DNA of 64,000 nucleotides from Metabacillus endolithicus (lineage in GTDB: Bacteria; Bacillota; Bacilli; Bacillales; Bacillaceae), in the NCBI RefSeq assembly GCF_023078335.1, contig NZ_CP095550.1, positions 2,462,001-2,526,000 on the forward strand, read 5' to 3'. The position numbers and the translations under genes were made by a program. Positions 34,804 to 43,457 of the stretch are shown in pieces. Positions within the stretch are counted from its first letter, which is position 1. Every line of letters begins with the position of its first letter. The notes beneath the pieces were generated by a model that made no database searches, was not told the origin of the DNA, and saw nothing but the letters and a program-made list of their open reading frames with translations.

Positions 34804-36837
34804 CTATCCTACGTTTGAAACTTCTTTTCCTAGCTGTAATTGATGCATTTTATAATACTTTCCTTTTTGCTCTAGGAGTTCCTCATGACTTCCCCTTTCA
34901 ACAATTTCACCATGATCTAACACTAAAATTTGATCTGCATTTCGAATCGTTGATAATCGGTGTGCAATGATAAAAGTTGTTCGTCCTTCCTTTACCACAT
35001 TTAATGCTTGTTGAATCATTGCTTCAGTTTCTGTATCAATATTAGCTGTTGCTTCATCTAGTATTAAAATCGCCGGGTCATATGCTAATGCCCGTGCAAA
35101 CGAAATAAGCTGTCGTTCTCCCGCTGATAACGTGCTACCCTTTTCTAAAACTGGCTCTTCAAATTGATTAGGTAGCTGTTTAATAAATCTCTCTGCACCT
35201 ACATCCCTCAAAGCTTTTCTTACCCGTTCTATAGGAATCTCATCATTTCCGAGGCTAACATTTGATTCAATTGTACCCGTAAATAGAAACGGATCTTGTA
35301 ACACAATGCCCATGTGCTTCCGCAGCTGTTGACGCGGAATTTGGCTTGTATCCATAGAATCTATCGTTATTTTTCCGCGGTTGATATCGTAATATCGAAA
35401 TAACAGGTTGATAATGGAGCTTTTCCCAGATCCTGTGTGACCAACTAACGCAACTGTCTCTCCTTTTCTGGCTTCAAAGGAGATATGTTTTAATACATCA
35501 TTTTCACCATCATACGAGAATGATACATTTTCAAATGCAACGTTTCCTTGAAATCTAGGAAGGATCTCTGTGTCCACTACCTCCCCTTTTTCATCAAGTA
35601 ATTCAAATACACGCTCTGATGCAACACGCGCCTGTTCCAACTGTGCAAGTTGATTTACAATATCCGTTACAGGCTGGAACAATCGATTTAAATAATCTAC
35701 AAAGGCATACAAAACACCAATTGAGATAATACCGGTTGCTGTTAGTGACTGCCCTCCGAAATACCAGATTAATGCTACAAATGTGGCATTTCTTAGCACA
35801 TTTACTAAATTATGAGAAGTTAAAGCGTTTAAACTTAGTAATTTATTTTGATACGTGAAGTGCTCTTTATTCAGCACCTCAAATTCAGCAATTGTTTGCT
35901 TTTTTCGACGAAATGCCCGAATAATCGTCATACCTTGTATCGACTCATTTACCACTCCATTTATATCACTAACACGAGTACGGATTAAATGATTATAGTT
36001 AGAAGCTACTTTTCGATAAAGCACCGTCCAGATAAACAAAATCGGTACAACAAGCAATGTAATCAGTGCCAGCTTGACGTCTAAGAAGAACAAAGCAATT
36101 AAAATTCCTGTCATATAAATACCACTTGTGAAAAAGCTCGCTAACACTTTTACATATAATTCCCTTATCGCCTCTGTGTCGTTTGTTACACGTGAAACAA
36201 TTTTCCCGGCGGGACGATTGTCGAAATATGAAAGTGGTACTCTTTGAATATGCTCAAATACATCTGTTCTCATTTTCTGGATAATACGGTTGGCTGCCTT
36301 TTGTAACAGCAAGGACTTTCCATATTGAAAGAAAGCTGCAACCAAGAGCAAGCCTACATAAATGCTTAGAAGAAAAATAATCGGTTTTATTTCAGGCTGA
36401 TAAAATGCTAACAGTTCTTCTCGCGTTAGTTTATTTACAGGATAGTTAGCAGTTTCATTCCCTTTACTAATTGTTAATATTTGGTTATTTACAGACCTCT
36501 TACCATCAAATGTTAAATGCTCATTTGTTACATAGAAGGAGCGCCCAACTTGCACAACCTGTATTTGATCTTCACCAACTATCCGGTCTGAAGTTATATC
36601 TGTATTCTTTTTATAATTCTTACCTTTATAGGTGACGGATTGTTCATCTTCCTCTAAAACCTCTACCCACGGCTTTTCAACCCCCATCATATGGTGATCG
36701 ATCATTCTTTTTGCTATAAACGGACCAGTTAACTCTGCTGCTACAGCAAAGGTTAGCATAGCAAGCGCAATAAAGATTGTTCGTTTATAGTGAAGTGCAT
36801 ATTGAACTAGGCGTCTTCCTGTTGAGGGATTCTTCAT
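34804..36837 (-). CDS. bmrD: Multidrug ABC exporter subunit BmrD (YheH)
   Basis: This 677-residue half-transporter has six membrane segments fused to an ATPase. A long external insert (about residues 45-145) between helices 1 and 2 is typical of BmrD. The ATPase has Walker A VGHTGSGKSS near 467 and an intact Walker B with catalytic Glu (ILDEATANID), but the signature is LSAGERQ instead of LSGGQ. It therefore pairs with BmrC so that the BmrD Walker B and the BmrC signature form the active site. It starts directly at the bmrC stop and is translationally coupled. Confidence 0.92.
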   Translation of the reverse strand: MKNPSTGRRLVQYALHYKRTIFIALAMLTFAVAAELTGPFIAKRMIDHHMMGVEKPWVEVLEEDEQSVTYKGKNYKKNTDITSDRIVGEDQIQVVQVGRSFYVTNEHLTFDGKRSVNNQILTISKGNETANYPVNKLTREELLAFYQPEIKPIIFLLSIYVGLLLVAAFFQYGKSLLLQKAANRIIQKMRTDVFEHIQRVPLSYFDNRPAGKIVSRVTNDTEAIRELYVKVLASFFTSGIYMTGILIALFFLDVKLALITLLVVPILFIWTVLYRKVASNYNHLIRTRVSDINGVVNESIQGMTIIRAFRRKKQTIAEFEVLNKEHFTYQNKLLSLNALTSHNLVNVLRNATFVALIWYFGGQSLTATGIISIGVLYAFVDYLNRLFQPVTDIVNQLAQLEQARVASERVFELLDEKGEVVDTEILPRFQGNVAFENVSFSYDGENDVLKHISFEARKGETVALVGHTGSGKSSIINLLFRYYDINRGKITIDSMDTSQIPRQQLRKHMGIVLQDPFLFTGTIESNVSLGNDEIPIERVRKALRDVGAERFIKQLPNQFEEPVLEKGSTLSAGERQLISFARALAYDPAILILDEATANIDTETEAMIQQALNVVKEGRTTFIIAHRLSTIRNADQILVLDHGEIVERGSHEELLEQKGKYYKMHQLQLGKEVSNVG

Positions 36838-39101: not shown

Positions 39102-39127
39102 AAGGTTGCCCAACCCCGGGCAACCTT
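39102..39127 (-). terminator. Strong hairpin downstream of the parR-like gene
   Basis: A perfect 10-bp GC-rich stem (AAGGTTGCCC / GGGCAACCTT) lies 28 bases after the parR-like stop. No T tract follows on either strand, so termination would be inefficient or Rho-dependent. Confidence 0.45.
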
Positions 39128-39154
39128 AAGTAGACAGCTAACAGAAAAGCTTGA

Positions 39155-39763
39155 TTATTTATTCATACTTGCTAAAAAGTCACCTAATAGATCACTTAAG
39201 TCATCTACTGGTTCATCTTCCTTCGATTCATCCTCTATCGTAGCAGCCACTTCATTTTCTGTAGGGAAGATATCAAAATCAGCAATATCATCTTCAAGTG
39301 CATTTACTACTACACTCTCTTCTTCATTCTCAACCTGATTAACAGGGAAATCTTCCACCTCTACATCCATCGGACTATTTTCAACTTCCTGTAAATACAG
39401 AGCTTCATCTATATCCAGGGAATTACTAGTTAATGAAGCTAATATAGATGTTGCTCTGACTGGATCAGATAATAGTTGATAAACAATACTTCCCATTAGT
39501 GCCTCTGAATGAGAGTGTTTTAGCCAATTTCGTTGATCTTTTGATAGTTGTTTTGGCAAAGGAAGTGTAATCATTTCTTTCTCTTTTTTTAATGAGCTGC
39601 CCACTCCTTCTAATACAAAATCAGCAATTGTACTAGAAAAGTTTCTTTTCTCCGTTTGTTTTAGTTTCTCCAATTGTCTTACTAAATGATCAGGGGTATC
39701 AGAGGGAAGGCGAAAGGTAATAGCCTGTCCCCTTTTTATGGTTGGTGTGCCCTTTTTATTCAT
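39155..39763 (-). CDS. ParR-like DNA-binding adaptor
   Basis: This 202-residue protein has a ribbon-helix-helix-like N-terminus (strand AITFRLP near 18-24, helix near 30-42, helix FSSTIADFVLEG near 46-57). A helical middle part and a strongly acidic C-terminus with a conserved-looking hydrophobic end (DLSDLLGDFLASMNK) follow. In plasmid segregation modules such an RHH adaptor binds centromere repeats and its tail contacts the actin-like filament. It lies 18 bases after the ParM-like gene and belongs to its operon. The ATG at 39763 has a modest GGGTGG site; start and family assignment are tentative. Confidence 0.6.
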   Translation of the reverse strand: MNKKGTPTIKRGQAITFRLPSDTPDHLVRQLEKLKQTEKRNFSSTIADFVLEGVGSSLKKEKEMITLPLPKQLSKDQRNWLKHSHSEALMGSIVYQLLSDPVRATSILASLTSNSLDIDEALYLQEVENSPMDVEVEDFPVNQVENEEESVVVNALEDDIADFDIFPTENEVAATIEDESKEDEPVDDLSDLLGDFLASMNK

Positions 39764-39781
39764 ATAACCACCCAATTTTAA

Positions 39782-40953
39782 TTAGACTGTTTGCTTCTCA
39801 TTCTTTTTCGGAGGCTCGCTGGTTTTTCTGACAAAATCGGAAACTAGTTTATAATAAGCATTTGCCATCATCCAAATACTTTCGTTTTCATCTTCAAAAA
39901 ACTCAATATTATAGCCATCTAAACTATTATTTAACATCTTAATATAGTCTTTTAGAACAATGGCTCCTCCACCAACAAAATAGCAGATTTCTGTTTGTGA
40001 ATTTTTTTGCCATACGTTTCGTAGATGACGGTATTGTTTCTTAGCAAGCTCAAGAAGAATGCGGTCCGTAATATCATGTACGTTTGTCCGACTACCTTTT
40101 ACCATGATGTGGTGACGATCATTCTTACGTGTAATAATATCAACCACATCTCGACGGCTGTCGAGCTCAACACCATGCTTTTTGCGGATTTCTTCTCTGA
40201 TTGCTTCTAATGACTCTGATACGCCAAGATTAAAGCCTGTGCTTTGTCATCATCAACATTACGATTTTTAATCACAGCAATATCTGTTGATAATCCGCCA
40301 ATATCTTGAATTAAAATTTGCTTATCAATTAAATCACGATTGATAATTTTTAAATCTTTGTCCATAACTAGATTAATAAATGCAGCAAATCCTTCTGGAT
40401 ATACCTTCACTTCGTCAAACTTAATATTTACTTTTAAACCTTGATATTTAGGAGTTACTAAAAATTCAACTTGATGAACAGATCCGAGGAGCTGTGAGCG
40501 ATAGCCAACATCTTTACCTTCCTTTACTTCACGAAGGGGCAAACCTGTTCCTAACGTATAATTTGCATCAATAACATTATTGGTTTTTTTGAAAATAGGA
40601 GAGTTTTCTTCTCGAACAGCATCTAGTGCCAGGGAAGTAAAAAGCATTACAAGTGTCTGATCTTCTTCTGATTTTGTGCTACCTGGATCCAATTCACTTG
40701 GGTTATCACTTTTTGTTGCGAGGTTACCAACTCGATAGATTGCATTGTTTTCCTTTAAGGCAGGGGAGTGAACTCTTACATGAATCCCATCTAATGGATC
40801 TTTATCATTTAATTCTTCTATACCAATAACCGGTCGGTCCTCAGTGTCTCTTGCAATAACATTAGGGATATATAATTCGTAATCTACTTTTCCAAAAAGC
40901 GCCTTCACGCAATCATTTCCAACATCAACTGCTGTAATTCTAGTTTTACTCAT
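39782..40953 (-). pseudogene. ParM/StbA-like actin homologue, broken by one missing base
   Basis: The first 248 residues carry the actin-superfamily phosphate-1 loop AVDVGNDCVKALFG (8-21) and phosphate-2 loop IQDIGGLSTDIAVI near 217. The frame then ends at 40207. A second frame continues as GVSESLEAIREEIRKK and includes the adenosine motif YFVGGGAIVLKDY, ending at 39782. Adding one T to the T3 run (AAA at 40232-40234) restores AFNLGVSES and a 390-residue protein of normal ParM size. It would form ATP-driven filaments that segregate DNA. Iterated repeats lie just upstream and a ParR-like gene just downstream. Confidence 0.78.
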
Positions 40954-40982
40954 CTAACCATCCCTCTCTATTTTTAATTCAT

Positions 40983-41012
40983 GAGTTACTAAATCAGTGA
41001 ATCTAGTAACTC
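40983..41012 (-). other. Inverted repeat in the parM leader
   Basis: GAGTTACTA and TAGTAACTC pair perfectly (9 bp, 12-nt loop), 30 bases upstream of the parM start. It could be an operator or an mRNA structure. A weak promoter (TTGACG, 17 nt, TTACCC) lies just upstream on the minus strand. The whole gap 40954-41408 holds this element, the iterons and an SDR terminator, and no gene. Confidence 0.45.
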
Positions 41013-41064
41013 AAGGGTAAAGGGTAATGGAGAGAAGCGTCAATATTACTTTCGTTGTGTTCAA

Positions 41065-41201
41065 TTTGAATACATGTATACAAATTTGTCTACATTTGTA
41101 ACAATATTGTATACACACCTATATGACGCGATGTATACGCATTTGTATACATGTACACATCATTGTAAACAACATGTACACAATTTGTATACATGTATAC
41201 A
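41065..41201. repeat. Iterated TTTGTATACATGTATACA-type repeats (candidate centromere)
   Basis: Four clear copies of an 18-bp unit occur (41065-41082, 41085-41103 degenerate, 41142-41159, 41184-41201) with further partial TGTATAC copies near 41108, 41133 and 41163. The unit is itself near-palindromic (GTATACATGTATAC). Such clustered iterons beside an actin-like gene are expected of a parC-type centromere and autoregulatory operator. Confidence 0.7.
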
Positions 41202-42375: not shown

Positions 42376-43425
42376 TTAATTTATCATTCTTTTAACCAAT
42401 TCACGATTACGATCTTTAAATACTTCATTATGAGAAGATACCATTCCTACTTTTGTAGCATCAGGCTGAATATATTGCTTTGCTTTGTTAACAGCATTTG
42501 CAGCATCTTGAAAGGCACCTGCGATTAAGTGAAGCTTTCCATCATGAGCCAAAATATCACCAGCCGCATAAATTCCTTCTATTGAAGATTCACTAGTTGC
42601 ATTACCTGATATATAAAATTGATCTTTTAATGAAACTTGCACATCACTATTTTGAAGCAGTGATGAATCTCGTTCATATCCATGATTGATTACCACTTCG
42701 TCGATCGGGAGATACGTCACTTCTCCTGTTTGATGATTTGTTAGTTCAACGCTTTCAATTTCTTCATGATTAGCACCGGCAACTAATTTCGTTATCGAAG
42801 TGTTGAAATAGCATTCAGCTTTACTCTTCATTAGTTGACTAATCTGTGCTTCATGGCCGTTTAACTCCCCTTTTCGGTAAGTTACGATTACTTTTTCAGC
42901 TATTGGCTCTAATTCGTTTGCCCAGTCAATTGCTGAGTTACCTCCACCAGATATAATGACTGTTTTATTTTTAAAACGTTTTAAGGATTTTACTGTGTAA
43001 TGTAAGTTAGATACCTCGAATTTTTCAGCACCTTCAATTTCAAGCTTTTGAGGATTTAGTATTCCACCGCCAACAGCAACAATCACTGTTTTGGAATAAT
43101 GCTTTTCCCCTGAAGATGTATGTAAAATAAAGATTCCTTCTTCATTACGTGAGATGGACTCCACTTTTTCATTTAATACAACTGTTGGGTCAAAGGTTAG
43201 GCCTTGCTGGACAAGCTGTTGAATTAACTTTTCTCCAAGAATTGGGGTTTGTCCCCCAACGTCCCAAATCATCTTTTCCGGATAAACATGAATTTTCCCG
43301 CCTAAATGTGGCTGAAATTCAATAATTTTTGTCTTCATTTCTCTTAATCCACTATAAAAGGCTGAGTAAAGTCCTGCAGGTCCTCCCCCAATAACAGTTA
43401 CATCAAACAGTTCCTGTGAGTCCAT
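42376..43425 (-). CDS. Ferredoxin/flavodoxin-NADP reductase, thioredoxin-reductase-like (YcgT/YumC type)
   Basis: This 349-residue FAD enzyme has GGGPAGLYSAFYSGLRE near 12-28 (FAD site), GGGNSAIDWANEL near 160-172 (NADPH site) and the late GIYAAGDI FAD contact near 282. It lacks the CxxC of true thioredoxin reductases, which identifies the TrxR-like ferredoxin-NADP reductases. The ATG at 43425 follows AAGGAG by 8 bases. A Fur box lies in its promoter and it is divergent from a siderophore ATPase. A role in supplying electrons for release of siderophore iron is plausible. Confidence 0.88.
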   Translation of the reverse strand: MDSQELFDVTVIGGGPAGLYSAFYSGLREMKTKIIEFQPHLGGKIHVYPEKMIWDVGGQTPILGEKLIQQLVQQGLTFDPTVVLNEKVESISRNEEGIFILHTSSGEKHYSKTVIVAVGGGILNPQKLEIEGAEKFEVSNLHYTVKSLKRFKNKTVIISGGGNSAIDWANELEPIAEKVIVTYRKGELNGHEAQISQLMKSKAECYFNTSITKLVAGANHEEIESVELTNHQTGEVTYLPIDEVVINHGYERDSSLLQNSDVQVSLKDQFYISGNATSESSIEGIYAAGDILAHDGKLHLIAGAFQDAANAVNKAKQYIQPDATKVGMVSSHNEVFKDRNRELVKRMIN

Positions 43426-43457
43426 TCTATTCACTCCTTAGCTTGAATTTCCATTAA

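Follow-up and report, generated by a model that had tools for sequence, protein, structure and literature searches.

The window analysed here is a stretch of 64,000 nucleotides from Metabacillus endolithicus. On its minus strand, positions 39102-41201 hold a repeat array followed by a promoter-like element, a ParM-like actin gene, a ParR-like adaptor gene and a GC-rich palindrome (Table 1). The contig that hosts the window is chromosomal, with a length of 5,051,955 bp and with dnaA located 134 kb from the locus. Thus, the chromosomal location assumed in the original prediction was borne out and the window does not belong to a plasmid. No replication or transfer gene was recognized by eye among the ORFs of at least 80 aa between 34 and 46 kb, as had also been claimed.

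Table 1 Features of the ParMRC-like locus and its surroundings (window coordinates)
Feature	Position	Strand	Remarks
ParM-like actin, N-terminal part of the broken frame	40207..40953	-	ORF of 248 aa; the final few residues are out of frame
ParM-like actin, C-terminal part	39782..40147	-	ORF of 121 aa; the profile match begins further upstream in the same frame
ParR-like adaptor	39155..39775 (start probably 39763)	-	N-terminal domain and C-terminal tail both conserved, with an acidic linker between
parC-like array	41067..41201		11 TGTATACA half-sites
Putative sigma-A type promoter in the gap between array and parM	41016..41043	-	TTGACG, 16 bp, TTTACC; weak -10 (3/6)
Terminator-like GC-rich palindrome directly 3' of parR	39102..39128		By sequence inspection
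Match to parS consensus TGTTNCACGTGNAACA	36184..36199		5 kb from the array, in an ABC exporter gene; outside ParMRC

The parM gene runs from 40953 to 39782 on the minus strand. When its two pieces were searched against Pfam, the N-terminal part matched ALP_N (E-value 3.9e-9) and the start of Alp7A_like_C (E-value 8.9e-5), and the C-terminal part matched Alp7A_like_C (E-value 5.3e-21). Both profiles exceeded the cut-off in the pieces of the window and in two intact relatives. The motifs DVGND and DIGGLSTD, which we take to be phosphate-1 and phosphate-2, and the GGG motif are unchanged across 11 ParM relatives. The predicted actin-like gene with nucleotide motifs was therefore upheld, but the prediction had overlooked that the frame is interrupted near 40.2 kb, leaving ORFs of 248 and 121 aa.

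The relatives of this parM have a single open frame of approximately 390 aa. In six close genomes this frame spans 390-396 aa, and the N-terminal part in the window is 94-98 % identical to it. Between the C-terminal piece and its counterpart in genome G002, 12 synonymous and 0 non-synonymous codon differences were counted, and purifying selection is visible in this piece behind the break. Other single-base differences from G002 were observed near 19.4, 27.2 and 42.1 kb, including the SDR gene (examples inside G002 ORFs of at least 150 aa), and the assembly quality of the window appears doubtful. Given these differences and the absence of non-synonymous changes in the piece, the frame break most probably reflects either an error in the assembly or a mutation that arose very recently. 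For ParM, the AlphaFold model (pLDDT 39.8) was unusable. In another genome, a second ParM-like copy with many stops (G013:C1:5477984-5478676) lies about 1 kb upstream of the intact parM.

The ParR-like gene adjoins parM downstream in 80 of 80 loci (the best 80 of 444, see below), and its product in the window contains 25 acidic and 2 basic residues past residue 128, in agreement with the adaptor with an acidic tail predicted after ParM. When 29 members were aligned, the N-terminal domain proved to be conserved, as did the tail, which ends in MNK in 27 of them, and the acidic linker was variable. No match to the protein was found in Pfam, NCBIfam or PHROGs at E-values up to 1. As to the ribbon-helix-helix fold that a ParR would have, its structural model is weak (an extended N-terminus, then two helices; pLDDT 66), and nothing trustworthy matched it in Foldseek and VIA-align, which proves nothing. 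Some ParR relatives bear UniRef labels beginning with "Plasmid segregation centromere-bin...", so that automatic annotation already leans the same way. The ParR relative of locus L059 shares 41 % identity over 95 aa with the product of a ParM-adjacent gene of plasmid pBM69. A partial second ParR copy is present downstream of the complete one at L075:7504-7809.

When the GTDB species set was scanned, 444 stretches encoding a ParM relative were obtained, of which the best 80 were analysed as loci. The label Bacillales rests on 79 of these 80 named loci, the remaining one being named Pseudomonas. This record, Pseudomonas sp. ISL-84 (L108), carries the ParM family; it falls beside Cytobacillus on the tree and is therefore probably misnamed or contaminated. 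In the sample of the order, 148 of 299 genomes carry the family, representing 50 of 114 genera, and it was present at 78-100 % identity in 48 of 120 relatives, own genome counted (G075, with a ParM match of 34 %, was left out of the family count and of the distance table). ParM identity was 83-87 % where DnaA identity was 81-82 % (three of three pairs). Genus g6, which we equate with the B. subtilis group on account of its RacA type, had no family member among the matches listed. As half of the sampled order, this genus included, is without the family, these bacteria can do without it over long evolutionary times.

A total of 72,556 plasmid records gave 37 with a ParM match, none at 60 % identity or more, and the closest plasmid ParM was 43 % identical among the matches listed (25 of 37). 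The phage collection contained no match to the family. In a quick tree, the 80 chromosomal ParMs stood apart from six plasmid cousins via a long branch, the long plasmid branches being flagged as a warning. The tree grouped ParMs by genus, with 39 label changes compared to a shuffled mean of 57.3, and several genera did not form single clades. With respect to synteny across related genomes, ParR is constant, and the other neighbours vary between species. No neighbour cluster was found in more than 15 of the 80 loci (best 80 of 444), with two exceptions: a mixed cluster seen in 34 of 80 loci, with an ABC ATPase as its example, and ORFs that overlap parM in antisense.

These data bear on the possibility that the locus is a recently captured plasmid cassette or a decaying relic. 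The parM gene is frame-broken as sequenced, and a stop-riddled extra copy lies beside the intact one in G013, as might be expected of a relic. However, the piece behind the break shows the mark of purifying selection, the family is conserved over 50 genera with genus clustering and slow evolution, and the survey by eye of 34-46 kb found no replication or transfer gene. We consider this explanation extremely improbable. Recent capture of a plasmid cassette, one of the two alternatives first offered for the locus, is disfavoured: the family occurs widely, is about as conserved as DnaA, groups by genus on the tree and is proximal to the origin in every genome measured (see below), and its plasmid matches remain below 60 % identity.

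The repeats upstream of ParM had been proposed to be parC-like. This was supported: the array is dense, conserved and located beside the genes, and it is a putative centromere. The number of "about seven" repeats was an undercount, since 11 half-sites with at most one mismatch are present in the window. When 81 regions upstream of parM (the window and the 80 loci, which are the best 80 of 444) were examined, the median was 8 half-sites per 400 bp, while the flanks of the 80 loci had a mean of 0.18. The median 8 half-sites of an array are spread over approximately 145 bp. Seven of the 81 regions contained fewer than five half-sites: a different sequence adjoins parM in L054 and L114, the motif is apparently shifted in L104, L106 and L110 (Heyndrickxia), and L039 and L068 simply have few half-sites.

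A stringent array pattern (28 bases, three half-sites, one mismatch) was searched in 120 genomes. It gave 71 matches, of which 70 lie at most 1.5 kb upstream of parM, and its reversed control gave three. The pattern was matched in 36 of 48 family genomes, being absent from the other 12, and in none of 72 non-family genomes. In these pattern searches, the dense array was found solely beside parMR. In the own genome, a 16-mer with up to two mismatches matched the locus three times and scattered positions another three times, and the control for this search gave three matches per strand. The sole array-like match far from parM (G107:C1:2147642) lies roughly opposite dnaA on a 4.14-Mb contig and, with one mismatch, may be due to chance. 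In G008, G012 and G040, array matches 1.2-1.45 kb upstream of parM represent second or displaced arrays.

The consensus of 74 upstream regions consists of two half-site blocks around a spacer, followed by ATTGAC. At least four half-sites were present in 76 regions, 55 of which have TTGAC downstream of the array, and in 48 of these a -10 element of at least 4/6 was found. By its sequence, the promoter-like element looks like the housekeeping type. An inverted repeat at 40982-41013 (13-nt arms, 6 nt between) in the gap between the promoter and the parM start is a possible leader hairpin.

As the array sits just upstream of the promoter-like element, ParR probably also controls the parMR operon. 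The array could even be an operator, which we count as a point against the centromere reading: ParR would merely repress the operon, and the filaments would serve shape, nucleoid form or replication control. Besides the position of the array, the few similar half-sites near the promoters of plasmid cousins would fit such a role. However, a median of 8 half-sites over some 145 bp exceeds what an operator needs, the six plasmid cousins hold 0-4 half-sites per 400 bp, whichever of two patterns is applied, and the origin linkage described below is left unexplained. We therefore regard a mere operator as rather unlikely.

Distances between parM and dnaA were collected for 50 handles representing 49 distinct genomes (G283 and G121 share coordinates and are apparently one genome). 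The set covers 22 genera plus six genomes added via named loci, one of these six being the same as G283. The DnaA_N profile matched repeatedly in eight genomes, where the best match was used as dnaA, and G024 (90 contigs) was included because both genes are on one contig. In all 50 handles, parM was located 34-258 kb upstream of dnaA (median 91 kb) and always transcribed away from it, and in 46 of 50 the distance was at most 150 kb. The sole control neighbour, 42376-43434, was found in 17 of 25 genomes, one of which has it on a contig that does not carry dnaA. In the remaining 16 genomes, compared by hand, the control lay at most 150 kb from dnaA on parM's side in eight and parM in all 16. Five of these eight are the window genome and four close relatives, in which the control is still beside parM. 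Since the local neighbours otherwise change, the position of parM is apparently kept beyond simple synteny, one control gene being a thin basis for this. The origin proximity may be inherited and not selected.

The match in the window to TGTTNCACGTGNAACA, presumably the parS consensus, is present in G002 too (L120:2178). A parS within about 8 kb of parM was found in 6 of 80 named loci (best 80 of 444), indicating no general nearness. Soj- and Spo0J-like ORFs were recognized by eye beside dnaA in G002. Thus, ParMRC would be additional to ParABS and no replacement for it, and the two appear to coexist.

The gene pair, the array, the origin linkage, the conservation and the absence of close plasmid copies are the computed support for a chromosomal ParMRC, long domesticated in Bacillales, whose single centromere marks the origin region and which would act on sister origins. 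We consider this reading probable, if well short of certain. ParR dimers would bind the array of half-sites beside parM, and the ParR tail would grip the ends of ParM filaments. With the array at approximately 35-260 kb from dnaA and therefore duplicated early, filaments between or behind its two copies would separate the sister origin regions or set their position, in addition to the action of ParABS/SMC. Among the alternatives first offered, chromosome-encoded filaments acting on this very locus fit best, as the dense array was found solely beside parMR; the action itself is what we infer.

A sporulation device, in which the filaments bring the origin region to the pole for forespore capture beside RacA, was also considered. 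ParM is present in 148 of 287 SpoIIGA-positive and 0 of 12 SpoIIGA-negative genomes (p 4e-4, uncorrected for kinship), SpoIIGA being scored by the PF03419 profile, which was taken as SpoIIGA and was missing in 12 of 299 genomes. However, in family f7 two of five SpoIIGA-negative genomes retain ParM (one is a 1000-contig assembly), and the promoter-like element resembles the housekeeping type. Matches to the Spo0A box were found in 8 of 77 upstream regions against 2.3 expected, which is above chance and not general. RacA, identified by NCBIfam NF009648, occurs independently of ParM (81 of 148 genomes with and 78 of 151 without ParM, p 0.64); this count is approximate, because none of the 299 genomes reached the curated cut-off of the profile searched. 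G031 was found to carry a RacA gene, and a narrow ORF pattern detected none in the G002 stretches. We concluded that a device dedicated to sporulation is unlikely. The order sample hinted at a strict link with sporulation, which family f7 weakened, and the RacA counts gave no support to ParM as a replacement of RacA. The most likely role of the chromosomal ParMRC is at the origin region during growth, and sporulation may draw on it again.

ParMRC is the textbook plasmid spindle. Of the characters of this type II partition system, a motif-bearing actin ATPase, an adjacent parR and an iterated parC-like array were found here, whereas plasmid carriage, which is customary but not a strict part of the definition, was not. 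The closest known type is the Alp7A-type ParMRC of Bacillus plasmids (PF22128): ParM scored 134 bits against a cut-off of 22, the adaptor gene lies directly downstream in both, and GTATACA-like half-sites are present upstream in plasmid cousins. In contrast, the chromosomal family is origin-linked, its best listed plasmid match is 43 % identical, its array is larger, and its ParR has approximately 190-210 aa with an acidic linker, compared to 133-151 aa for the plasmid adaptor. Cousins at about 40 % identity with similar half-sites upstream of parM would suit a chromosomal copy that acts on plasmids, stabilising them or, by competition of half-sites, destabilising incoming plasmids with a related parC. 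However, the dense array is chromosomal and adjoins parMR, the ParMs and ParRs of plasmids are distant relatives, and origin linkage would not be expected from a function on plasmids, so that we judge this explanation very improbable.

Chromosomal ParMs have already been published. In the parts of PMC12270681 (Ali et al. 2025) that concern them, they are described in Desulfitobacterium (Dh-cParM1) and Clostridium (Cb-cParM), are highly conserved in some genera and have their function left open. They share with the present family a ParM and a ParR on the chromosome. Bt-cParM (Bacillus tropicus), conserved on several Bacillus chromosomes, is comparable here by description only. Dh-cParM1 showed no significant match to the N-terminal part of the window ParM (phmmer E-value 0.18) and was absent from the family-profile matches at an E-value of 0.01, which places the present family outside the Dh-cParM1 sequence subfamily. 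At the mentions of origin or oriC listed from that paper (12 of 17), distance to the origin is unstated. At title and abstract level, none of the matches listed describes a ParMRC of Bacillales that is linked to the origin, with subscription literature mostly outside this search.

Two other systems are tied to the origin region. ParABS (Soj/Spo0J, parS), described in part in PMC8242196, likewise has an origin-proximal centromere and an adaptor, but its ATPase is Walker-type and not an actin. RacA with its ram sites is active, according to the relevant part of PMC6593407, at the origin region when Bacillus sporulates; it would share this region with ParMRC, but the RacA protein is unrelated and its occurrence is independent of ParM.

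We tentatively raise the wider possibility, to which we give somewhat less than even chances, that the main chromosome has an actin spindle of its own for its segregation or positioning, which would be a second widespread origin-segregation machine of Bacillales. If so, it would have been unnoticed because the B. subtilis group is without the family. The origin-side location in about half of the sampled spore-forming Bacillales species suggests that actin filaments help move or position the chromosomes of these bacteria. With its unvarying link to the origin, its single compact array and a conservation similar to that of DnaA, the family opens this question to direct tests in harmless alkaliphiles and Metabacillus, and an origin-linked ParMRC may explain differences in origin segregation among Bacillales genera.
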